In this document: one piece after another, positions 37,732 to 50,016 of the stretch
How positions within the stretch are numbered: the stretch's first letter is position 1
Layout of the letters: each line of letters starts with the position of its first letter
Source: Bacillus sp. F19
Lineage (GTDB): Bacteria; Bacillota; Bacilli; Bacillales; Bacillaceae
Length of the DNA: 64,000 nt
Direction: 5' to 3'
NCBI GenBank assembly: GCA_023823795.1
Contig: CP085710.1
Span: 398,001 to 462,000, forward strand
Notes under the pieces: model-generated
Databases searched by the model: none
The model's input: only the letters and a program-made list of their open reading frames with translations
Told to the model about the DNA's origin: nothing
Program-made: the position numbers and the translations under genes

Positions 37732-38310
37732 TTGAAGAAAGAGGATGAGCTTATAAAGAGAATCAGAAAAGGGGACAAGGATGCATTTGGTCATTTAGTC
37801 AAAGATCTGCTGCCTTCAGCCTATCAAACCGCCTTCTTGATTCTCCGGTCAAAAGAGCATGCGGAGGATGCCCTTCAGAATGCTTTGGAAGGCGCGTATA
37901 TCAGCATCATGAAAAACAGTGATATGACTCATTTTAAACCTTGGTTTTACCGGGTTGTCTATTCAAAATCAATTGATTTATACAGAAAAAACAATCGGCA
38001 TGTGTTATCGGAACTGGATGATTACCATCAGCAGGAAGGGAACGGCGGCTCTAATTCAGCCCAGCAGCTCATCATCCAAAAGGAGAACAGACAGGAAATG
38101 CTGGCCCGTATCCTGGAACTGAAAAAAGAACAAAGCCTCCCAATCTATCTTCATTATTATGAAGAGATGAGCATGAAAGAGATTTCGCTTGTTCTGGGAG
38201 AAAATATGAACACTGTAAAAACAAGAATGAAACGGGGAAAACAAATGCTCGCCCGCGTTCTGAAAGACTCAAACAGGTACACTGAGGGGGTTAAAGCAAA
38301 TGGGCTCTAA
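37732..38310 (+). CDS. ECF-type sigma-70 family factor
   Basis: The 192-residue protein starts at TTG 37732, after GGGAGGCCTCCCAA. Region 2 spans about 20-85 (AFLILRSKEHAEDALQNALE and FKPWFYRVVYSKSIDLYRKN). Region 4 spans about 125-180 (LPIYLHYYEEMSMKEISLVL and NMNTVKTRMKRGKQMLARVL). It directs RNA polymerase to stress promoters. Its stop overlaps the start of a membrane protein that probably acts as its anti-sigma factor. Confidence 0.9.
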   Translation: MKKEDELIKRIRKGDKDAFGHLVKDLLPSAYQTAFLILRSKEHAEDALQNALEGAYISIMKNSDMTHFKPWFYRVVYSKSIDLYRKNNRHVLSELDDYHQQEGNGGSNSAQQLIIQKENRQEMLARILELKKEQSLPIYLHYYEEMSMKEISLVLGENMNTVKTRMKRGKQMLARVLKDSNRYTEGVKANGL

Positions 38311-39382
38311 AAGGGAAAAAAACATCAGCGATTTCAGTGATTGGCAGGTGCCGGGCTCAATCGAAACGTTCATCGGAAAACTGCCGGAACGTTATTCGGA
38401 AGGACAAATCAAGAAAGAGGCGGAAGATCAGATGGACCTGGAATGGCGCGCTTTTCAGGCAGACCTTAAAAAGAACAGCTTCTTTAAGAAAAAACCGGTT
38501 CTTATTGTGCTTGCTTTAGCTGCAGCCTTCATGCTTTTCATTGGAACTGCCTTTGCGTCGCCTAGTGTAGCGCAGGTTGCAGCAAAAATTCCGATCTTAA
38601 ATCTCTTATTTGAAACAGAAAAACAGCCGCTTATGGAAGAACTGCAAAAAGCGCTGGACGATAAAGGGTACAAATGGGACGGCTTGGGGGTGGGGGTGCA
38701 GCCGAGGGAAATCAGTGTAAGAATCGTCGGCACCGATGAATATTATGATGATGTGAAGCAGGATGTGGAAGAACTGATTCAAGGAATTTTAATGAAAAGA
38801 AACGATAATGCTTATTCCATCGACATCTCTAAATCAGAACCAGTGGAAGAACCTTCAGAAGCTGAATTAGAACAAGCGGGAGAGCAGCACAAAATAAGTG
38901 AGGATGTACAGGAAATCCTGGCGGGATACGGATATACACAAACAGGCTTTGGCATTCAAGAAGGCGTGATTGAATTTGACCTGCCAAAGGATGAACCGCG
39001 AATCGAGGAAATCAAAACAGCTGTCTCAGGTCGTCTTAAAGAGAAACAGTTTGGTAACTATTCAGTTAAAGTGCATACATTCGACAGAGCCAAAAAAGAG
39101 CGTGAAGACAGATGGATTCCGATCTTTAACACCATTGCAGACGGCCTGACTGCCAAAGCTGAATATAAAGTAAAAGGTGTCGGCTACACGAATAAATACG
39201 ATTATTACGCCATTTATATCACGACAAGCGTTTCTTATAAAGACGATGATGCCAAGGAACTTGCGGGTGCTATAGAAAAAACAATTGAGGTTTATTTAAC
39301 CTCTGAAAAAGTAAAGAATACCATTAAAGGTGATGACTATAATATCATCATAAACAGCAAGGAAGATAAACAACTGAATTGA
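38300..39382 (+). CDS. DUF4030-type membrane protein, likely anti-sigma partner
   Basis: The 360-residue protein has a cytoplasmic N-terminal part of about 65 residues, one transmembrane helix (about 67-88; PVLIVLALAAAFMLFIGTAF) and a large outside domain with two repeated alpha/beta units (QPREISVRIVGTDEYYDDVK and EGVIEFDLPKDEPRIEEIKT). It starts 11 bases before the sigma gene ends, so translation is coupled. The single-helix topology and gene order suggest that it restrains the sigma factor; this is an inference. A terminator follows. Confidence 0.75.
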   Translation: MGSKREKNISDFSDWQVPGSIETFIGKLPERYSEGQIKKEAEDQMDLEWRAFQADLKKNSFFKKKPVLIVLALAAAFMLFIGTAFASPSVAQVAAKIPILNLLFETEKQPLMEELQKALDDKGYKWDGLGVGVQPREISVRIVGTDEYYDDVKQDVEELIQGILMKRNDNAYSIDISKSEPVEEPSEAELEQAGEQHKISEDVQEILAGYGYTQTGFGIQEGVIEFDLPKDEPRIEEIKTAVSGRLKEKQFGNYSVKVHTFDRAKKEREDRWIPIFNTIADGLTAKAEYKVKGVGYTNKYDYYAIYITTSVSYKDDDAKELAGAIEKTIEVYLTSEKVKNTIKGDDYNIIINSKEDKQLN

Positions 39383-39727: not shown

Positions 39728-40048
39728 ATGAATTCTGAACATGTCAGAGCCCTTGCAAGGGTTTTTCAGGAAGCATCAGATTCCGTTAAAGACCAGGAAG
39801 CAAAATTGCTTCAAGATATAAACAATAATGCAGCTACATGGAGCGGTAAAAGCCGCAGCAAATTTGATTCCGCCATGGACGAAGCCCAGATCCTGTTCCA
39901 AAGACACTCAGACAACCTCTACGACATCAGCCGCGAGCTCGAAGCCGCCGCCGATTCCGTTGACCGAGTGCGGGAAGAGATTGAAAGACAGGAAGAATTA
40001 GAGAGGCTTGAGAGAATCCTCCGCCTGAAGAAATTAGATGTGCAGTAA
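39728..40048 (+). CDS. WXG100-like small protein (YfjA-like)
   Basis: The 106-residue helical hairpin has the turn AATWSGKSRSKFDSAMDEAQ, with W-S-G in the WXG position (about 38-40). Helices on both sides are rich in Glu/Gln/Ala, and a long charged tail follows. WXG100 proteins are secreted by, or chaperone substrates of, the type VII (ESX/Yuk) system. TGGTGAGGTGAAAG precedes ATG 39728. The gene order with the YfjB-, C- and D-like genes resembles the yfjA-F locus of Bacillus subtilis. The secretion machine itself is not in this window. Confidence 0.75.
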   Translation: MNSEHVRALARVFQEASDSVKDQEAKLLQDINNNAATWSGKSRSKFDSAMDEAQILFQRHSDNLYDISRELEAAADSVDRVREEIERQEELERLERILRLKKLDVQ

Positions 40049-40066: not shown

Positions 40067-40156
40067 ATGAACCATCGTTCAAGCAAAAAGAAAAAGAAAG
40101 TGGACGAAAGACAGGGAATGAATGACGGCTGCGTGCCGGGATGTATTGATTTTTAG
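40067..40156 (+). CDS. 29-residue Lys-rich peptide ending in DGCVPGCIDF
   Basis: ATG 40067 follows GGGGTGCAGC, so a weak ribosome site exists. The peptide begins MNHRSSKKKKKVDER, then GMNDGCVPGCIDF and stop. The same GM(N/D)DGCVPGCIDF end segment is present in the next small gene, and the codons differ (TGC GTG CCG against TGT GTT CCA), so selection acts on the protein. The two Cys are spaced CxxxC. It lies in the type VII locus between the WXG100-like and YfjB-like genes. Function unknown. Confidence 0.6.
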   Translation: MNHRSSKKKKKVDERQGMNDGCVPGCIDF

Positions 40157-40212
40157 ATTATCAGTTTTCCCATTTAATATAATGACTAAATTCAAATTTT
40201 ATGAGGTGCACA

Positions 40213-40371
40213 ATGAGCCATCAACATGATCATGATCCGAATTATAATCGGAAGAAGAAAAAAGAAGAGAAAAAAGGAATGGATGACGGCTGTGTTCCAG
40301 GGTGCATCGACTTCTTTTTTCTTCCATTTCAAATCGCTGTTTTAGGCTATCAATTCTACCATTTAGTATAA
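40213..40371 (+). CDS. 52-residue protein with DGCVPGCIDF and a hydrophobic tail
   Basis: ATG 40213 follows ATGAGGTGCACA (AGGTG as ribosome site). The protein starts MSHQHDHDPNYNRKKKKEEK, carries GMDDGCVPGCIDF, and continues as FFLPFQIAVLGYQFYHLV, a hydrophobic segment long enough to sit in a membrane. It is a longer paralogue of the 29-residue peptide. The His/Asp-rich start and CxxxC could bind metal or lipid; this is a guess. Its place in the type VII locus suggests a role in that system. Confidence 0.65.
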   Translation: MSHQHDHDPNYNRKKKKEEKKGMDDGCVPGCIDFFFLPFQIAVLGYQFYHLV

Positions 40372-40402: not shown

Positions 40403-41650
40403 GTGTCTAATAAAATTTCAGTAGATCCGGATAAGCTGGATCAGCTTGCCAATTCATTTGTTCACAAGCTGTCAGATATTGAAGAAGAATATAGCAGGCT
40501 GCATATTGAACTTGCCAACTTGATTATGAGTGCTCCTCCGGAATACAGCCATTGTTTTTATGGAGTGGGTGATCCATGGAACACAGGCAAAACTCTTGTA
40601 AGTCATCTAAGCGATATGGAGCAGGATGCCAGAAATACAGGGAATAAATTTGCAGAAGCTGATAACTTAATCGGCCAGCTTTACAAACTTCATGAGAAGT
40701 ATGGGGCTTTAACTGCCATGGGAGCGTTAGTAGGGAGACAGGCTACATTTTATGGTCTTGGATTAACGCAATTTATTAAAAATACAGATAATTTATATTC
40801 ATTTAGACATATGAAAGCCTTGCAGACTTTATCAGATGTAATTGATGATTCAAAATACCGTAAAGTAGCCAGAGGTTTTTTGAAAGTAAGTTTTCTTTCT
40901 TCGAGATACAATTCTTCGTCCTTTGCAGACCTGGTTCATAAAAAATATGCAAAATATCTTCCAGATGAAGTAGTGAATTATACAAATGACGCAAAAACGT
41001 TTGTAAAGGGTTTAAAAAACAACACTTTGAATGCTTCAAAAGTGTCATCTTTTGCAAAATCAGGGCTTAAATTTGCAAAAACCAATGCATTGACAACTGT
41101 GGCTATTACAGGTGCTATGGAAATAGGCGGAATGGGACTCAAGATATCAGAGAACTATGCCAAATATGGGAATGATCCGGACGTCTTAAAACGTGAAAAT
41201 GCAAAGGCCGTTGGGAATGCCGTGAACAATACTGCCGCTATAAGCGGAGGAGCCATTGCAGGTGCAGTAGTTGGAGGGGCAGCACTAAGCGTCTTTGGCC
41301 CTGTAGGAACAGTTGTTGGAGCATCTGCAGGTTCTTTTGTCGGCGGACTAATCGGTGAAAAAGTTGCAAAATATACAGCTGGATTTAGTGAAAAAGTAGC
41401 CATGGTATTTGATGACCAAATTCAAGGCGGTATAAATGTGTTTAAAAGCGGGTTTGAAAAAGCCGGAAAGGCAGTGGATACTTTTAACAGCGGCGTAGAT
41501 TTTGTAAACAAACAAATAAAAGAAACAATTGCAGATCCTGTAGGTAAGGTAAAAGATTTCGGCAAAGGGCTTTCAAAGGCTAAAGACACCGCCGAATCGC
41601 TTGTAAGCGGGGCTGGAAACTTTTTAAAAGGAAAATTCTCATTTGGTTAA
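40403..41650 (+). CDS. Type VII-associated protein with WXG100-like N terminus (YfjB-like)
   Basis: The 415-residue protein starts at GTG 40403, after AAGGAAGGAG. Residues 1-100 form a helical region like WXG100/LXG heads (VDPDKLDQLANSFVHKLSDI). Residues 281-318 are a glycine-zipper membrane segment (GGAIAGAVVGGAALSVFGPV). The tail (about 320-415) is amphipathic with repeated FxxGxxKA/KD units. It may be a secreted effector or pore-like protein carried by the type VII system. It resembles YfjB in length and place. No catalytic motif is seen. Confidence 0.65.
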   Translation: MSNKISVDPDKLDQLANSFVHKLSDIEEEYSRLHIELANLIMSAPPEYSHCFYGVGDPWNTGKTLVSHLSDMEQDARNTGNKFAEADNLIGQLYKLHEKYGALTAMGALVGRQATFYGLGLTQFIKNTDNLYSFRHMKALQTLSDVIDDSKYRKVARGFLKVSFLSSRYNSSSFADLVHKKYAKYLPDEVVNYTNDAKTFVKGLKNNTLNASKVSSFAKSGLKFAKTNALTTVAITGAMEIGGMGLKISENYAKYGNDPDVLKRENAKAVGNAVNNTAAISGGAIAGAVVGGAALSVFGPVGTVVGASAGSFVGGLIGEKVAKYTAGFSEKVAMVFDDQIQGGINVFKSGFEKAGKAVDTFNSGVDFVNKQIKETIADPVGKVKDFGKGLSKAKDTAESLVSGAGNFLKGKFSFG

Positions 41651-42480: not shown

Positions 42481-43032
42481 TTGCTAAACCTGCAAAAAGA
42501 AAACAACAGTATCAAAATGAAAGGCTCCAAGTTTATGTATGTCTGGATGCTGCTTGCTACCTTTGGAGGACTTGCAGCGTGCATCTTTCTTATCGTAAAT
42601 GGTTTTAAATTCGATTCAAAGTACTCGTTTTTTTACCTTGGAGGAGGCTTTTTGCTTTTTCCAATCTTTCTTTATCTAACATTATGGTCACTTCCGGGGT
42701 TCGTACCGGGGAAAACGCTGCTTGTTGTGATAGAAGGGGCAAATGGCTCCATTATTGCCAAGAAAGACACTATTCCCTTTACAAGTATAAAGAGCATCCG
42801 TTTTGTAAGAAACCCGCTCAACCTGATAAATGACATCGTCATCGAAACGTTTCAGGGAGAGGTAAGAAAAATACGGACTTATAACCTAATAGACGATACA
42901 GACTTTGCCATTTTAATAGATCAATATGTTTATCCTAATATGAGTGAAGATGCAAAGGCAGTCTGGGACCGTCATGTGAATTTAAGTGAATTGTTTGAAC
43001 ATGCAAAGTATGAGAGAAAGACAGACATTTAG
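42481..43032 (+). CDS. DUF5381-like two-helix membrane protein (YfjD-like), paralogue 1
   Basis: The 183-residue protein begins at TTG 42481 after GAGGAGGG. It has two membrane helices (about 18-40 and 50-75) joined by a short loop, then a cytoplasmic domain (IPFTSIKSIRFVRNPLNLIN; YNLIDDTDFAILIDQYVYPN). It ends in YERKTD. Two related genes follow (43180 and 43799), all with the LPGF/LIPGK and RNPLNL/RNPVNL motifs. It resembles YfjD of the yfjA-F locus. Function unknown, probably linked to type VII secretion. Confidence 0.7.
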   Translation: MLNLQKENNSIKMKGSKFMYVWMLLATFGGLAACIFLIVNGFKFDSKYSFFYLGGGFLLFPIFLYLTLWSLPGFVPGKTLLVVIEGANGSIIAKKDTIPFTSIKSIRFVRNPLNLINDIVIETFQGEVRKIRTYNLIDDTDFAILIDQYVYPNMSEDAKAVWDRHVNLSELFEHAKYERKTDI

Positions 43033-43179: not shown

Positions 43180-43737
43180 TTGCCTTATACACATGAAGAA
43201 CCCAGCTTTATAAAAATAAGAGCTCCATTGTTAATGTATCTATGGATGGGACTTTTTATATTTGGAGGTTTAACAGCTTGTTATTTATTGATTACTTATG
43301 GATTGAAATTTGAGTCGGATTATTCATTAATCTATTTGGGTGGCGGCTTGATTTTATCTCCCTTTTTTATATATGAAGCTCTTTGGGCACTTCCAGGATT
43401 TATTCCAGGAAAAGTTTTATTTATTCTATATAAGGGAGAGAACGGCAGTATTGTTTCTAAGAAAAAAACTGTACAGTTTAAAAATATCCGAAATATTAAT
43501 TTTAAGAGAAACCCGTTAAACTTATTTAATGAGGTTATAGTAGAGACCTATGATAACAAGAGCGTTAAATTCAAAACATACAATTTACTTCATGAAGTAA
43601 ACTTCTATGACATAGTTGATGAACACATTTTTCCGAATATGACAGATGAAGTTAAAATAGCCTGGAACCGAAAAATATCTGATGATCAATTTCTTAAAAG
43701 CATGAATTATGAGAGGAAAAATCATAAAGCAGATTAG
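43180..43737 (+). CDS. DUF5381-like two-helix membrane protein (YfjD-like), paralogue 2
   Basis: The 185-residue protein starts at TTG 43180 after AAAGGAGCTG. It has the same layout as paralogue 1: two helices (about 19-42 and 50-75), LPGFIPGKVLFILYKGENGS, then FKRNPLNLFNEVIVETYDNK and the C-terminal MNYERK. Overall similarity to paralogue 1 is strong by eye, while codon use has become more AT-rich. It is a tandem duplicate of unknown function. Confidence 0.7.
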   Translation: MPYTHEEPSFIKIRAPLLMYLWMGLFIFGGLTACYLLITYGLKFESDYSLIYLGGGLILSPFFIYEALWALPGFIPGKVLFILYKGENGSIVSKKKTVQFKNIRNINFKRNPLNLFNEVIVETYDNKSVKFKTYNLLHEVNFYDIVDEHIFPNMTDEVKIAWNRKISDDQFLKSMNYERKNHKAD

Positions 43738-43798: not shown

Positions 43799-44329
43799 AT
43801 GCTTAATGCAATATCATAGAACTCAAAACTATATATCAAAGGAAACAAATTTTATTACGGAGTTTTGGCAGCTTTTATTTTAGGAGGCTTATTTGGGTCA
43901 AGTTATGCAATCTCAGAAGGGTTTGGGTTTGTTGGCGGCTTTCTATTCTTTCCAATCTTCCTCTATTTGTTTTTCTGGTTTCTGCCGGGGCTTATTCCTG
44001 GAAAGGTCTTAATTTCATTGTTACAAGGCGAAGGCGGATATCTGCGTACTAAGAAAGGCGATATCGCATTCCAACATATTAAGCAAATTAATTTAGCGCG
44101 TAATCCTGTAAATTTGGTCAACCGTATTGTTATTAAAACCTTTGATGAAATAGTTTATGAAATTCCTGCATACGACCTTATTGATGAAACGGACTTCGCT
44201 GTTATTGTAGATAAGTACATCTTTTCCCATATGTGTAGTGAGACTCAGCTTGCATGGAACCGTAATGTAAATCTTGATAAGTTATTTAGAGAAGTGAATT
44301 ATGAGAGGAAAGCAGATGTAAAAGATTAA
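43799..44329 (+). pseudogene. DUF5381-like paralogue 3 with nonsense codon 7 (YfjE-like)
   Basis: ATG 43799 follows TTGGAGGGAACAA, a good ribosome site. The frame reads MLNAIS, then TAG (43817), then NSKLYIKGNKFYYGVLAAFI in the same frame and on through the two helices, LPGLIPGKVLISLLQGEGGY and RNPVNLVNRIV, to the stop at 44329. Only the TAG interrupts it. A restart at TTG 43865 would give 154 residues that lack part of the first helix. It is probably inactive or expressed only by readthrough. Confidence 0.75.
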
Positions 44330-44666: not shown

Positions 44667-44734
44667 ATCCCATGTAACAAAGCGATTAGGGCTTGCCCAA
44701 ATTTACATCGTCAATGAAGGGAGCTAATAAAGAG

Positions 44735-45004
44735 ATGAGTATTCAAAAAAGCACGGATAGTTCGAGTTTAGCGGAAGTTATTGACCGGATTCTTGACAAA
44801 GGAATTGTAATTGATGCATTTGCCAGGGTGTCGCTTGTTGGAATTGAGATTTTAACGATTGAAGCAAGGGTTGTGATTGCAAGCGTCGACACTTGGCTGC
44901 GATATGCAGAGGCTGTCGGTTTGCTGCGTGATGAAGTGCAGGAGGAAGGTCTTGCAAATCTTCAAAAGAATGAACGAAGCACACAATCAGCTTTTAACTT
45001 TTAA
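44735..45004 (+). CDS. gvpA: Gas vesicle structural protein GvpA
   Basis: The start is ATG 44735; 89 residues. The GvpA core is clear: [20 protein letters not shown], then [20 protein letters not shown] and [14 protein letters not shown]. It forms the ribbed hollow shell of gas vesicles, excluding water while letting gas pass. It is the first gene of a 14-gene operon in Priestia megaterium order. Its partner gvpB at 46073 is almost identical over the core. Confidence 0.95.
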
Positions 45005-45043
45005 TAGATGAATCATTATTATATGAAGAAATGGGGATAAATC

Positions 45044-45529
45044 ATGGCAGGCAAAGATAAGAAAGAAAAAATGGAAAATCAGGAAGAATCGAATCAGCAA
45101 GAAGAACAGAATCAAGATGAGAAACAGCACAATTCCTTAAATTATGTGATTTTAGGCGGAGTTGTTGGAGCAGGAATCGGATTGCTTTCAAGTCCTGAGA
45201 CAAGCAAAAAGGTGTTTAACAGTCTTGGGCAATCAGAAGCAGTAAGAGTGGCCGGCAAGGAATTAAGAAGAACGGCACAGGAAATCATTACTGAGCAGGC
45301 AATGGTTGCGCTCAGACAGACAGCAACAGGCTACCTTGATAAAGGAAACTTAAGCAGCCTGCTTGCACCGAAGAAAAAGAAAGAATCTTCTCCGGAAAAT
45401 GAGAAAAGTGAAGAAAAGGAATTAGACTCTTCTCAATATGATGAGTTGAAAGAGGAAAACAAAAACATGAATGACCAGCTTCAGCGCATTGAAGAAATGC
45501 TGAATCAGCTCATTGAAGCGAAGAAATAA
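45044..45529 (+). CDS. gvpP: Gas vesicle protein GvpP (YtxH-like)
   Basis: The 161-residue protein has a Glu/Gln-rich start, a hydrophobic glycine segment (YVILGGVVGAGIGLLSSPET, about 33-52) as in YtxH proteins, and an acidic coiled tail. It sits between gvpA and gvpQ as in Priestia megaterium. Its role is not well defined; it may help shell assembly or clustering. Confidence 0.85.
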   Translation: MAGKDKKEKMENQEESNQQEEQNQDEKQHNSLNYVILGGVVGAGIGLLSSPETSKKVFNSLGQSEAVRVAGKELRRTAQEIITEQAMVALRQTATGYLDKGNLSSLLAPKKKKESSPENEKSEEKELDSSQYDELKEENKNMNDQLQRIEEMLNQLIEAKK

Positions 45530-45556
45530 TGGATTTGCCCTGAAAGGGGTGATTAG

Positions 45557-46051
45557 ATGGATAAAATGAAAAAAGCTGCTTTAAAAGCTGGAAAAAAAAT
45601 CATTGAAAATACGCCTGAACCTATTAAAGAAAAGGTTGAGGATAAGGTTAAAGAAAAGGTTAAAGAAAAGGTTAAAGAAAAAGCGAAGGAAAAATTCGTC
45701 GAGAAGACAGAGGAAAAGCTGCAGGAAAAAGTAAATGCAGCTGCCGAAAAGCTTGGCCATGCAAAAGACGAGAATGCAGATAAAGTTCATGGCAAAGCTG
45801 AAGAAGCAAAAGAGAAAGTGCAGGATATTCTGCTGTCTGTCAGAGACAAGCTGGGCAACGTGAAAGAAGCGGGAAAAGATTTTCAAGAGAAAATCTCTTC
45901 TAAAGATGATAAGAAAAAAGTGAAAGGCTATAAAGGCATAAAAGGTGTCAATCAAATCAAAAGCTCCACAGATTTAAAAAGCTCTACGAAGATCAAAAGT
46001 TCCAATGATATTAAATCTTCTACAGATATAAAATTATCAATTGGATCTTAA
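45557..46051 (+). CDS. gvpQ: Gas vesicle protein GvpQ, Lys/Glu repeat protein
   Basis: The 164-residue protein is highly charged. Residues 21-50 repeat KEKV or KEKA units, encoded by near-identical 12-base repeats (45630-45690). The end is a series of IKSSTD/IKSSND-like units (about 134-160). It lies in the GvpQ position after gvpP. The helical charged repeats suggest a scaffold; GvpQ's exact role is unknown. Confidence 0.85.
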   Translation: MDKMKKAALKAGKKIIENTPEPIKEKVEDKVKEKVKEKVKEKAKEKFVEKTEEKLQEKVNAAAEKLGHAKDENADKVHGKAEEAKEKVQDILLSVRDKLGNVKEAGKDFQEKISSKDDKKKVKGYKGIKGVNQIKSSTDLKSSTKIKSSNDIKSSTDIKLSIGS

Positions 46052-46072
46052 CCCTGAGAGGAGAATACAGAA

Positions 46073-46333
46073 ATGTCGATCCAAAAAAGCAACAACAGTT
46101 CGAGTTTAGCAGAGGTTATTGACCGGATTTTGGATAAAGGGATCGTAATAGACGCTTTTGCAAGAGTATCAGTAGTCGGAATTGAGATTTTAACGATTGA
46201 AGCACGAGTCGTTATAGCAAGTGTGGATACTTGGTTGCGTTATGCAGAGGCTGTAGGTCTCCTTCGTGATGAAGTTGAGGAAAATGGTCTCCCTGAGCAA
46301 TCAAATGAAAGAAGTTCACAGTTTAGTATTTAA
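46073..46333 (+). CDS. gvpB: Gas vesicle structural protein GvpB (GvpA paralogue)
   Basis: The 86-residue protein is nearly the same as GvpA through the core ([40 protein letters not shown]), differing mainly at the C-terminal tail. In Priestia megaterium GvpB is the main shell protein. GAGAGGAGAATACAGAA precedes ATG 46073. Confidence 0.94.
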
Positions 46334-46396
46334 GTAATACAAATGGCTCCTGCTTCTTACCTTTAAACGGCTGAAGGAACAATCGGAGGCGACACT

Positions 46397-46660
46397 ATGG
46401 CTATTAAAGAAATCATGAAAAACGTAAACGACTTTTTCAGCGAACATGTAGCACCGCCGCACAAAATCACTTCTGTTGAAGCGATGGATGAGGGCTGGAG
46501 AGTGACGGTTGAAGTGATTGAAGAAAAAGAATATATGAAGAAATATGCAAAAGATGAAATGCTCGGAACCTATGATTGTCAGTTAAACAAAGATAAGGAA
46601 GTCACGTCTTTTAAAAGACTGGACATTCGCTACCGAAGCGCAATCGGTATGGAACAGTAA
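46397..46660 (+). CDS. gvpR: Gas vesicle protein GvpR (GvpO family)
   Basis: The 87-residue protein matches the GvpO/GvpR family: GWRVTVEVIEEKEYMKKYAK and YDCQLNKDKEVTSFKRLDIRY. GvpO-type proteins affect expression or assembly of gas vesicles. It lies directly before gvpN, as in Priestia megaterium. Confidence 0.88.
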   Translation: MAIKEIMKNVNDFFSEHVAPPHKITSVEAMDEGWRVTVEVIEEKEYMKKYAKDEMLGTYDCQLNKDKEVTSFKRLDIRYRSAIGMEQ

Positions 46661-46688
46661 GGGATGAGCGGGCAGGAGGCAAGTAAAG

Positions 46689-47612
46689 ATGACGGTCTTA
46701 AAAGAAAAGGTAAAGAAAGATGCAAGAGCATTGATACAGGACGATGAGACGAAGGATATTCTCAAGCGTTCGCTGCAATACTTGAAAGCCGGATATTCAG
46801 TACATTTTACAGGCCCCTCAGGTGCAGGAAAAACCTCCCTTGCGCTTGCTCTTGCCAAAAAAAGAAAACGGCCGGTCATGCTTATGCACGGAAATCACGA
46901 ATTAAATAATAAAGATTTAATCGGGGATTTTACAGGCTATACGAGTAAAAAGGTCGTCGATCAGTATGTCAGATCTGTTTATAAAAAAGATGAAACTGTC
47001 AGCGAAATGTGGAAAGACGGACGGCTGCTTGAAGCAGTTAAAAACGGATATACGTTAATTTACGATGAGTTCACTAGGTCCCGCCCTACTACCAATAATA
47101 TTTTTCTATCGATTTTAGAAGAGGGTGTTCTGCCGTTATATGGCTCTAAATTAACAGAACCATTTGTCCGGGTTCATCCCGATTTCGCAGTCATATTCAC
47201 CAGTAATCCTGCTGAATATGCAGGAGTTTACGATACGCAGGATGCCTTGCTTGATCGCTTGATTACGATGTTCATAGATTATAAAGATGTTGAACGCGAG
47301 ACGAGAATCGTAGCCGAAAAAACAGATGTAGAAGAAAACGAAGCAAGAGCTATTACCACTCTCGTTACGAATTTACGGGATGCTTGCTCAAACGATAAGA
47401 ATAATGGTCCTAGTTTGAGAGCTTCGATTATGATAGCGAAGCTTGCAGCAGAACAGGATATTCCAATAGATGGTGAAGATCCGGATTTTCAAAGCCTTTG
47501 CATTGATATTTTATGTCATCCAATCAGCAGATGTCTTGATTCGGATCATGCTAAAGCAGATGCAGAGCAATTAATAATAGATGAATGCAGCAAAATGGAC
47601 GTCTTGGATTAG
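46689..47612 (+). CDS. gvpN: Gas vesicle AAA ATPase GvpN
   Basis: The 307-residue MoxR-type ATPase has Walker A FTGPSGAGKTS (about 40-50), Walker B TLIYDEFTRS (about 122-131), sensor AVIFTSNPAEYAG and an Arg finger region ALLDRLITMF. GvpN drives shell elongation, so vesicles stay small without it. AGGAGGCAAGTAAAG precedes ATG 46689. Confidence 0.95.
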   Translation: MTVLKEKVKKDARALIQDDETKDILKRSLQYLKAGYSVHFTGPSGAGKTSLALALAKKRKRPVMLMHGNHELNNKDLIGDFTGYTSKKVVDQYVRSVYKKDETVSEMWKDGRLLEAVKNGYTLIYDEFTRSRPTTNNIFLSILEEGVLPLYGSKLTEPFVRVHPDFAVIFTSNPAEYAGVYDTQDALLDRLITMFIDYKDVERETRIVAEKTDVEENEARAITTLVTNLRDACSNDKNNGPSLRASIMIAKLAAEQDIPIDGEDPDFQSLCIDILCHPISRCLDSDHAKADAEQLIIDECSKMDVLD

Positions 47613-47623
47613 AGGAGTGTTTG

Positions 47624-48391
47624 ATGATGAGTGAACAAGAAATGGGTATATATATTTTCAGCGGAATTCAAACGACGGAAGATGAGGATTTTGGAACAGT
47701 GGAAATTGAAGGCGAAGAGAGGGAAACCTTTACGATTCGCTACAAAGATGCTGCGATGGTTGCAGCCGAGGTTCCAATGAAAATCTATCATCCGAATCGT
47801 CAAAATTTGATGATGCATCAGCACGCTGTTGCCGCGATTATGAGCAAAAATGATACAGTCATCCCGATCAGCTTCGGGAATGTTTTTACATCCAAAGAAG
47901 ATGTAAAAGTCCTTCTGGAAAACCTGTATCCTCAGTTTGAAAAGCTCTTCCCGGCAATTAAAGGGAAGATTGAAGTCGGGTTAAAAGTCATCGGCAAAAA
48001 AGAATGGCTTGAAGCAAAAGTAAATGAGTATCCAGTGGTTGGGAAAATGTCAGCTTCTGTGAAGGGCAAGTCTGAAGCGGCCGGATATTATGAACGCATT
48101 CAGCTTGGAGGCATTGCTCAGAAACTGTTTGCTGATCTTCAAAGGGAAGTGAAAGCCGAGGTGTTTACGCCGCTTGAAGAAGCAGCTGATGCCGCAAAAG
48201 CAAATGAACCGACTAGCGAAACAATGCTATTAAATGCCGCATTCTTAATTGATCGTGATTCTGAGGAGCTTTTTGATCAGAAGGTAAATGATGCACATGA
48301 AAAATGGAAAGATAAAGTCGAATTTAACTACAGCGGTCCATGGCCTGCTTACAACTTTGTGAACATCAGGTTAAAAGTAGAGGAAAGCTGA
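47624..48391 (+). CDS. gvpF: Gas vesicle protein GvpF
   Basis: I choose ATG 47624 (ATGATG pair, after AGAGGAGTGTTTG), giving 255 residues; an in-frame TTG or ATG inside gvpN is less likely. GvpF/L features are visible: GIYIFSGIQ at the start, VIPISFGNVFTSKEDVKVLL, a central Lys/Glu helix and the end WPAYNFVNIRLK (Gly-Pro-W-P-x-Y). GvpF binds GvpA early in assembly. Paralogous to gvpL. Confidence 0.93.
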   Translation: MMSEQEMGIYIFSGIQTTEDEDFGTVEIEGEERETFTIRYKDAAMVAAEVPMKIYHPNRQNLMMHQHAVAAIMSKNDTVIPISFGNVFTSKEDVKVLLENLYPQFEKLFPAIKGKIEVGLKVIGKKEWLEAKVNEYPVVGKMSASVKGKSEAAGYYERIQLGGIAQKLFADLQREVKAEVFTPLEEAADAAKANEPTSETMLLNAAFLIDRDSEELFDQKVNDAHEKWKDKVEFNYSGPWPAYNFVNIRLKVEES

Positions 48392-48392
48392 T

Positions 48393-48656
48393 ATGCTTCA
48401 TAAATTGGTTACCGCACCAATGAATCTTGTAGTTAAAATCGGACAAAAGGTACAGGAAGAAGCAGAGAAAGAGTTATATGACCTTCCTGCTATTCAGCAA
48501 AAGCTCATTCACCTCCAAATGATGTTTGAGCTCGGCGAGATTCCTGAGAAAGCTTTTCAAGAAAAAGAAGAAGAGCTTTTGACAAGGTATGAAATTGCCA
48601 AGCGCAGGGAAATGGAAGAGTGGGATAAGCTGACGAAACCAAGAAACGAGGGATAA
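48393..48656 (+). CDS. gvpG: Gas vesicle protein GvpG
   Basis: The 87-residue helical protein has the GvpG pattern: LVTAPMNLVVKIGQKVQEEA, LIHLQMMFELGEIPEKAF and a Glu/Arg-rich end. It starts two bases after gvpF stops, showing coupling. GvpG is thought to act with GvpF and GvpL in nucleation. Confidence 0.92.
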   Translation: MLHKLVTAPMNLVVKIGQKVQEEAEKELYDLPAIQQKLIHLQMMFELGEIPEKAFQEKEEELLTRYEIAKRREMEEWDKLTKPRNEG

Positions 48657-48660
48657 GCAG

Positions 48661-49470
48661 ATGGGCGACTTGATTTATTTATATGGATTGATACCAACTA
48701 AAGAAGCGGCAGCACATCAATCGTTTCCATCTTTCAAAGGCTTTGATGGTGAACGCAAGCTATACACCATTCCGATCAACAATGTCACCGTAGTTGTTTG
48801 CAAACTGGATTCTGATCATTATTCAGAAGAAGCCATTAAAGACAAGATCGAAAGTGATATGGACTGGCTGCAGGAAAAAGCGTTCCATCATCATGAAACG
48901 GTTGCCGCCCTTTATAAGAGCTTCACAATCATTCCGCTTAAATTTTGCACGATTTATAAGAATGAAGATAGCCTGAAGCAAACCATTCAATCCAATGATA
49001 CAAGGATTGTAGAGACACTTTCCATGCTGCAGGGGAAAGAAGAATGGAATGTGAAAATCTATTCTGACGATAATGAACTGAAAAAGCAGGTAAGTGAAAA
49101 CAATTCCGCAATCGAAGCGAAGAAACAGGAAATAAGCGAACTGCCTCGCGGAAGACAATTTTTCGAAAAGAAAAAGATTGATAAGCTGATCGAGGATGAG
49201 CTTGAAAATGAGAAGAATCGAGTTTGTGAACAAGTGCATGAGAAGCTGAAGGAGCATTCGCTTCACGCAGCTATTAAGAAAAATTGGAGCAAAGATGTCA
49301 CAGGACTAAAAGAAAACATGGCCTGGAACAGCGTGTTTCTTCTTCCGATTCCGAAAGTGGAAAGCTTCTTGGAAGAAATGAAGCAGTTTGAACAGGAACT
49401 TGGCGGCACTGGCTGGAGATTCGAAGCTACAGGCCCATGGCCGGCTTACCATTTTTCCAGTTTTTCATAA
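48661..49470 (+). CDS. gvpL: Gas vesicle protein GvpL
   Basis: The 269-residue GvpF/GvpL family member opens with LIYLYGLIPTKEA, has TIIPLKFCTIYKNEDSLKQT in the first domain, a long charged helix (about 145-200), and ends in GPWPAYHFSSFS. It shares the terminal Gly-Pro-Trp-Pro-Ala-Tyr with GvpF. It acts in the assembly complex with other minor Gvp proteins. Confidence 0.93.
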   Translation: MGDLIYLYGLIPTKEAAAHQSFPSFKGFDGERKLYTIPINNVTVVVCKLDSDHYSEEAIKDKIESDMDWLQEKAFHHHETVAALYKSFTIIPLKFCTIYKNEDSLKQTIQSNDTRIVETLSMLQGKEEWNVKIYSDDNELKKQVSENNSAIEAKKQEISELPRGRQFFEKKKIDKLIEDELENEKNRVCEQVHEKLKEHSLHAAIKKNWSKDVTGLKENMAWNSVFLLPIPKVESFLEEMKQFEQELGGTGWRFEATGPWPAYHFSSFS

Positions 49471-49489
49471 AAAGTGAGGGATCTGACAG

Positions 49490-49711
49490 ATGTCTCTTAG
49501 AGAATCCGTTGAAAATAAGGATATAGCCCTTATTGATATTTTAGATGTCATCCTCGATAAGGGTGTGGCAATCAAAGGTGATTTAATCATTTCGATCGCA
49601 GGTGTAGATCTTGTGTATTTGGATCTAAGGGTTCTGATTGCTTCAGTTGAAACGCTTGTTCAATCAAAAGCAGGCAACCGAAAGCCCGTCACATCTGATC
49701 AATTCGGGTAA
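49490..49711 (+). CDS. gvpS: Gas vesicle protein GvpS (GvpA/J-like)
   Basis: The 73-residue GvpA-like protein has the core ALIDILDVILDKGVAIKGDL and VYLDLRVLIASVETLV. It lacks the longer tail of GvpA. GvpS, GvpJ and GvpM types are minor shell proteins thought to form the tips or start vesicle growth. Confidence 0.92.
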   Translation: MSLRESVENKDIALIDILDVILDKGVAIKGDLIISIAGVDLVYLDLRVLIASVETLVQSKAGNRKPVTSDQFG

Positions 49712-49731
49712 GCAGAGGGAGGAGTTAGTCG

Positions 49732-50016
49732 ATGCAACAGGCGAGCCAAACAAATGGTAGAATCCAGCTTGATCCTGAAAATGCTGAACACGGACTTGCG
49801 CAGCTAGTCCTGACCGTCGTTGAGCTTCTCAGACAAATTGTCGAACGTCATGCGATGAGGCGGGTGGAGGGTGGAACGCTGACGGACGAGCAAATTGAAG
49901 ATCTTGGAGCAGCCTTGATGAACCTGGAAGATAAAATGGAAGAATTGAAAGAGGTCTTTGGCCTTGACGCTGAAGATTTGAATATAGATCTTGGCCCTTT
50001 AGGCAGCTTGTTATAA
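49732..50016 (+). CDS. gvpK: Gas vesicle protein GvpK
   Basis: The 94-residue protein has the GvpK signature GLAQLVLTVVELLRQIVERH followed by AMRRVEGGTLTDEQIEDLG and a short acidic tail. GvpK is essential for vesicle formation in several hosts. GGGAGGAGTTAGTCG precedes ATG 49732. Confidence 0.94.
   Translation: MQQASQTNGRIQLDPENAEHGLAQLVLTVVELLRQIVERHAMRRVEGGTLTDEQIEDLGAALMNLEDKMEELKEVFGLDAEDLNIDLGPLGSLL

Follow-up and report, generated by a model that had tools for sequence, protein, structure and literature searches.

Two consecutive short open reading frames (ORF1 and ORF2) are flanked by a WXG100 gene and a YfjB-like gene in the window, i.e. the whole stretch of 64,000 nucleotides that was analysed, and the locus raises the question of whether they are genes and, if so, what such small proteins could do in a type VII secretion operon. 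A sequence-only reading had described them as a conserved pair sharing GM(N/D)DGCVPGCIDF, written with different synonymous codons and placed between those two genes. The placement is indeed as described (Table 1), and BLASTP of the common peptide gives 12 identities over 13 residues, with 9 of the 13 codons differing, 8 of them synonymously. ORF2 begins with a Lys/Arg-containing head, continues with DGCVPGCIDFF and ends, as had been noticed, in a C-terminal hydrophobic segment of membrane length, which is confirmed by hydropathy; an in-frame ATG upstream at 40201 would extend it to 56 codons.

Table 1. Genes of the cassette in the window and the evidence for each
Feature	Position	Strand	Evidence
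WXG100 protein, YfjA-like, 106 aa, first gene of the cassette	39728..40048	+	PF06013 6.8e-13; TIGR03930 1.8e-13; both above cut-off
ORF1, 29 codons, probable tail-less relic of a full-length mini-protein	40067..40156	+	DNA alignment with G006, G002 and G007
ORF2, 52-aa mini-protein	40213..40371	+	RBS, family membership, dN/dS 0.10, hydropathy
YfjB-like protein, 415 aa, GTG start	40403..41650	+	~50% identity to homologues in B. subtilis-group species records; alignments A3 and A5
YfjC-like protein, 265 aa	41669..42466	+	HMM matches adjoining YfjB across loci
DUF5381 protein, copy 1	42481..43032	+	PF17353 1.5e-32
DUF5381 protein, copy 2	43180..43737	+	PF17353 5.8e-34
DUF5381 protein, copy 3, N-terminus shortened	43865..44329	+	PF17353 3.6e-19, from profile position 43

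The intergenic gaps from the WXG100 gene through ORF1 and ORF2 to the yfjB-like gene are 18, 56 and 31 bp, and no terminator-like site came up between the cassette genes on the + strand. RBS-type signals are found before ORF2 (GAGGTGC, a few bases from the ATG) and ORF1 (GGGGTGC), and GAGGTG-type signals precede many of the relatives of ORF2, not all. Given that a promoter scan returned 7 promoter-like sites against 6.5 expected, no internal promoter is claimed at the position of the tail that ORF1 lacks. The WXG100 gene scores 49.1 bits in Pfam (cut-off 27.3) and 50.5 with TIGR03930 (cut-off 44.85). The YfjB-like protein has a WXG-like N-terminus and a glycine-zipper-like stretch near 282-323; its PF06013 and PF13488 matches are weak and below the gathering score (19.4 bits against 25 for the glycine zipper). 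The third DUF5381 copy has 154 aa, against 176 in G002 and G006. Directly upstream of the cassette (37732-39382) lie a sigma-factor-like gene and a DUF4030/DUF4179-type gene, the RsiV match being weak and below cut-off; both are also present in G006 and the latter in G002, while other genes occupy this side in G001, G004, G005 and G007. Beyond the cassette, the region 44693-50016 carries what we take to be a gas-vesicle-like cluster (presumed gvpA/gvpJ-, GvpP/Q-, GvpN- and GvpF/L-like genes).

ORF2 is, with near certainty, a real gene encoding a conserved membrane-type mini-protein, whose family members are called minis hereafter. When ORF2 was searched against the window's genome and 100 relatives, matches at E<1e-7 were obtained in 7 of 8 genomes of the window's genus and in 7 from a further genus, g4, the best at 9.1e-33; most of the remaining matches, up to E 10 in the 100 relatives, look like chance. 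With alignments, minis were matched in 20 of 81 genomes of the family sample (E<=1e-3). Matches were further obtained in 9 of 397 genomes of the order sample (E<1e-7), three other families (f30, f44 and f47) being among these, and in 4 of 398 of the class sample (E<=1e-4), all from the window's own genus. The collections hold one genome per species, and six genomes of the order sample with matches from 8e-4 to 9e-3 were counted as chance (in G277 and G387, which were inspected, these fall among unrelated genes). Family members have about 40-79 aa, and named loci with minis are from Metabacillus, Cytobacillus and Mesobacillus and from records titled Bacillus, Peribacillus, Paenibacillus and Sporosarcina. 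Since the genome (G) and locus (L) collections overlap (e.g. G001 is L124), counts from the two are never summed.

The suggestion that the peptide is under selection is borne out as well. Pooled by codon counts, the three ORF2 orthologues give a dN/dS of 0.10, with 8, 2 and 28 differences at codon positions 1, 2 and 3, and six other groups of minis give 0.04-0.31, pairs inside one group not being independent. An eighth group, of first copies, is saturated at synonymous sites and shows a pN/pS of 0.07-0.24. Several copies in the alignments have unsure starts (TTG or none). With close homologues in other genomes and purifying selection, ORF2 is more than a chance frame. The contrary view, that the common peptide reflects chance or a repeat artefact, could appeal to the very short frames and to the lack of a family: no Pfam match was found for 23 of 23 members of alignment A1 nor for ORF1 and ORF2, no NCBIfam match for ORF1 and ORF2, and no match of the minis among PDB sequences. 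However, homologues at the same place in several families, the RBS and the purifying selection refute it for ORF2, and it deserves next to no credence for the locus, though it may apply to ORF1. Nor is a phage or plasmid origin of ORF2 supported, as tblastn against 72,556 plasmid and 50,697 phage records gave no match at E<=1.

What does not stand is the pair. ORF2 is real and selected, but ORF1 looks like a tail-less relic and the gap of the window's clade holds one to three minis, which rules out an obligate pair. The paralogue of ORF1 is full-length in G002 and G007, tail-less with a different end in the sister genome G006, and was not found in G001; at locus level, copies of the ORF1 type are full-length in L032 and L037 and tail-less in L036. 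The ORF1 copies of the window and G006 have the head and the DNA just before ORF2 in common and differ in where the frame ends. Because this downstream sequence is common to both, the simplest reading would be a paralogue whose tail was lost before the split of the two sister species, G000 and G006. Since that split, the head has undergone four changes, three of them synonymous (P ~0.02 if neutral), which allows that it may keep a residual role. Other minis also look altered. The G038 copy (L043:6982-7083) has an in-frame stop inside the hydrophobic tail, related genomes having intact copies; the G054 mini has a shortened head; and G007 copies 2 and 3 have no ATG where one is normally found. 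Start codons are furthermore unsure in L166 and L167, where CTG is possible, and in L163, with GTG.

The surrounding operon is of a known kind. A WXG100 gene comes first, a YfjB homologue follows, YfjC and DUF5381 genes lie downstream and EssC is encoded in the genome, as in a YFJ-type T7SSb cassette; the names YfjA, YfjB and YfjC are assigned from gene order and from homologues in records of B. subtilis-group species other than B. subtilis 168. The YFJ toxin operon of B. subtilis is already known, and a review gives it as a proposed biofilm-specific signal, presents YfjB as a predicted pore-forming toxin and YfjC as having predicted structural homology to EspG. The statement that no description exists therefore holds for the minis, within the literature searched, and not for the operon around them; the primary YFJ toxin preprint lay outside that search and may mention them. 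New, then, is a mini-bearing subtype of a known cassette. The claim of a position inside a type VII locus is likewise right as to a WXG100/effector operon, but the operon lies apart from the secretion machine: the only EssC above cut-off (TIGR03928, 1740.9 bits against 778.4) is at C1:5.008-5.012 Mb, and the operon at 0.438 Mb on that contig, which is 5.085 Mb long. All 27 of the other genomes examined also have an EssC above cut-off, G003 and G013, without a mini or a full-length YfjB, included. As it is present in every genome tested, EssC does not discriminate mini-bearing genomes, and linkage of the mini to the T7SS core was dropped as a discriminator.

The minis are associated with YfjB. 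Homologues of ORF2 recur beside WXG100 and YfjB genes in other genera, as a neighbourhood check proposed with the sequence-only reading was meant to reveal, and for ORF2 neither a lack of such homologues nor frame-breaking changes in close relatives was observed. A scan for YfjB in a collection of 84,980 species returned 49 named loci. A mini lies in the yfjA-yfjB gap of 21 (19 by HMM, L138 and L163 by eye) and behind DUF5381 in two (L166 and L167), and was not found in 26, namely the B. subtilis and B. pumilus groups, L137, L150, L153, L168, L170-L172 and others, the gaps of L137 and L150 being read by eye and the rest by HMM. A fragment at L129:5663-5764 (E 0.4) was left out of these counts. 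In the YfjB tree, one clade (support 99/100) has a mini in the gap in 22 of 23 rows, i.e. the 21 loci and the window, L137 being the exception; the deep branching inside it is unsettled, and several of its rows are long. The titles of L124, L126, L131 and L136 (Peribacillus, Paenibacillus, Sporosarcina) clash with the placement of their YfjB among Metabacillus- and Cytobacillus-type sequences, which may reflect transfer or outdated names.

The genome counts tell the same for close relatives and less strictly beyond them. Across the 29 genomes of the window's genus and g4, both genes occur in 15, YfjB alone in 1, the mini alone in none and neither in 13, an agreement of 28/29 (Fisher 2e-7, in a subset picked after seeing the data and with kinship ignored). 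In the family sample of 81 genomes (mini at E<=1e-3, YfjB at E<=1e-60) the corresponding figures are 18 with both, 31 with YfjB alone, 30 of these in genus g6, 2 with the mini alone and 30 with neither (Fisher 0.0016). YfjB was found at E<1e-80 in 17 of the 397 genomes of the order sample, 9 with a mini by A1 and 8 without; one of the latter, G093, does carry a mini in the gap, divergent and rich in cysteines, and all 9 genomes with a mini (E<1e-7) carry a long YfjB. In G020, where the gap measures 50 bp, YfjB was found without a mini. In G005 (L035), two yfjB genes, whose products are 48.5% identical, each have minis directly upstream, a first-type copy before one and second- and third-type copies before the other. 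In G007, whose copies 2 and 3 appear decayed, YfjB is closest (79.5%) to the G005 YfjB having only copy 1. This likeness is suggestive, and no more, of cognate pairing between YfjB and mini.

Minis can also occur without a full-length YfjB, as in the g2 genomes G008 and G016. G008 has its mini side by side with DUF5381 and the remnant of YfjC. Of the G016 minis, one is separated by ~3 kb from DUF5381 genes, and for two others (L214 and L221) no yfj gene lies within 13 kb. The minis of G008 and G016 by DUF5381 both lie in what is presumably a fliD/hpf-like region. In G019, G022 and G025, minis are found behind yfjABC-DUF5381 operons (L220, L219 and L215) and elsewhere too, G019 and G022 having solitary ones (L217 and L218), and in L216 a mini stands beside DUF5381 without yfjABC. 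The relatives at L214, L217, L218 and L221 are cysteine-rich, with frames of 59 and 79 aa and no yfj gene in the fetched 13 kb, and at L039, L041, L048, L049 and L050 DUF5381 genes and minis are scattered near a region that we take to be fliD-like, without YfjA or YfjB. With these g2 orphans and a B. subtilis group that seems to have the cassette without a mini, the tie to YfjB is thus tight in one clade and loose in another.

As for the protein itself, the head is charged and often lysine-rich (net charge -2 to +5) and is typically followed by the core P-G-C-x-D-F-F-x-x-P-x-Q-x-x-x-x-G-Y. All 36 members tabled have a hydrophobic stretch at the C-terminus or close to it, with a Kyte-Doolittle mean of 1.55-2.39 over the best 19 residues; the stretch is hence only moderately hydrophobic, with a Pro and a Gln in the tail. 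Minis are likely to be tail-anchored membrane proteins with the N-terminus inside, the orientation being a weak inference because of the low net charge of the head. The lipidated protein that had been imagined finds no counterpart here. In a bacterial lipoprotein the hydrophobic stretch of the signal peptide precedes the lipobox Cys; in the minis it comes after the Cys, so this is no lipoprotein arrangement and that candidate was rejected. The CxxxC that had been read as a functional motif fares no better: every one of the 25 rows of alignment A4 has the second Cys and the Gln, but only 14 keep both Cys, the other 11 having Ser, Trp, Ala, Tyr or Phe in place of the first, and a CxxxC metal-binding or disulfide protein was likewise rejected. 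A sensor role, in which cysteines at the membrane border would bind metal or form disulfides and so gate the cassette, draws on the distant branch (g2 and some gap members), where 11 members tabled have 3-6 cysteines, often as DGC repeats, and on the one Cys that is invariant in both alignments, this being, in the mixed alignment A6, the Cys nearest to the hydrophobic stretch on its N-terminal side (20 of 20 rows; one more Cys reaches 90%). Against it stand the 11 A4 members with a single Cys, and we regard it as improbable, ranking it behind the three readings weighed below.

The reading that we prefer, with a probability of roughly 40%, is that ORF2 serves the YFJ cassette as a single-pass membrane accessory, one that would guard or handle the membrane-active YfjB inside the cell producing it. 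The cassette would then comprise the WXG100 protein YfjA, the membrane-active effector YfjB, a chaperone-like YfjC and one to several DUF5381 proteins. Judging from its sequence, ORF2 would keep its head in the cytoplasm while the last ~20 residues span or enter the inner membrane, and it would act at the inner face of that membrane in the cell that makes it. Its tail (P-x-Q...LGY) may pair with DUF5381 or with the glycine zipper of YfjB and thereby keep YfjB from opening pores in its maker ahead of export. Such a guard accounts for the membrane tail, for the tandem copies that diverge and decay and for the orphan copies near DUF5381. Immunity-like traits are indeed seen in the minis, i.e. tandem divergent copies, decayed copies and copies near DUF5381 in G008 and G016, where orphan copies without the toxin, as known for immunity proteins, also occur. 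Several points count against it: the mini is upstream of the toxin, whereas LXG immunity genes, in published accounts, usually lie downstream; g2 has solitary minis; and the N-in orientation is weakly inferred for a tail of moderate hydrophobicity that contains Pro and Gln. Moreover, the cassettes of the B. subtilis and B. pumilus groups, L137 and G020 yielded no mini, so neither export of YfjB nor immunity to it needs a mini in general.

The place between the WXG100 partner and the effector is better accounted for by an export or targeting factor, which would tether YfjA-YfjB(-YfjC) to the membrane beside EssC, in the manner of the small partners of LXG toxins, and be needed for this YfjB subtype only. 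Linkage to one YfjB clade fits such a factor, as does the EssC gene adjoining the cassette in G356 and G375, but it also adjoins the mini-less cassette of G133. Known WXG and Lap partners are helical hairpins of ~100 aa, and a mini of 52 aa, with a charged head, a hydrophobic tail and no Pfam match in any A1 member, was rejected as one of them; minis without a full-length YfjB (G008, G016) or away from any yfj gene in g2 are hard to reconcile with export. Weighing for it is the position just upstream of the effector, where, according to the T7SSb literature, partner genes of effectors can sit. On balance this reading appears rather unlikely, if the closest competitor. A third one casts the mini as the toxic or signalling agent, a membrane peptide delivered together with YfjB against which DUF5381 proteins protect. 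This reading would suit a short protein with charged head and hydrophobic tail, the tandem diverging copies and the minis beside DUF5381 without yfjABC at some g2 loci (L216). It is improbable, since no export signal was seen by eye, which speaks equally against the secreted factor suggested earlier, since copy numbers show no clear relation (e.g. one mini and seven DUF5381 stretches in L162, two and one in L127 and L132) and since the conserved tail would not be diversifying as toxin ends usually do. Neither guard nor export accounts for the solitary minis of g2.

To return to the guard, a more ambitious form of it, which we consider unlikely as it stands, would make of the minis a new class of micro-proteins guarding the pore-forming effectors of T7SS. 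The peptide, a single helix inserted from inside into the membrane of the producer, would cap the glycine-zipper helices of YfjB until export, as a second layer beside DUF5381, and copies would be collected, diversified and discarded as YfjB types change. Membrane-active T7SSb effectors are made and stored in a cell that they could kill, and the mini is a candidate for how this is managed. Furthermore, as YFJ cassettes split into two natural types, with and without a mini, its role is testable by comparison.

Compared with known systems, the nearest is the YFJ operon of the B. subtilis group (B. spizizenii, B. tequilensis, B. inaquosorum and others), which has the same gene order and homologous proteins, with YfjB ~50% identical; there, however, no mini was found and yfjA leads directly into yfjB, whereas the gap of the window's clade holds its minis. 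Eukaryotic CYSTM modules are also tiny, with a polar head and cysteines at the edge of a C-terminal membrane helix; minis lack any Pfam match, and the likeness is probably convergence. The small partners of T7SSb effectors (EsxB, EsxC and EsxD for EsaD; LXG targeting factors) are, in published accounts, small and encoded upstream of the effector like the mini, but bind the toxin's transport domain and serve as export factors, unlike a protein of ~50 aa that has a hydrophobic tail and also occurs without full-length YfjB. The partners of membrane-active toxins come close in another respect: in published reports, several tsaI homologues occur at one locus, TspA immunity being an inner-membrane protein encoded adjacently, and TelE is a T7SSb toxin with a C-terminal glycine zipper countered by TipE, a protein without membrane segment whose gene lies downstream. 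In the cassette described here, DUF5381 takes that downstream place and the mini the upstream one.
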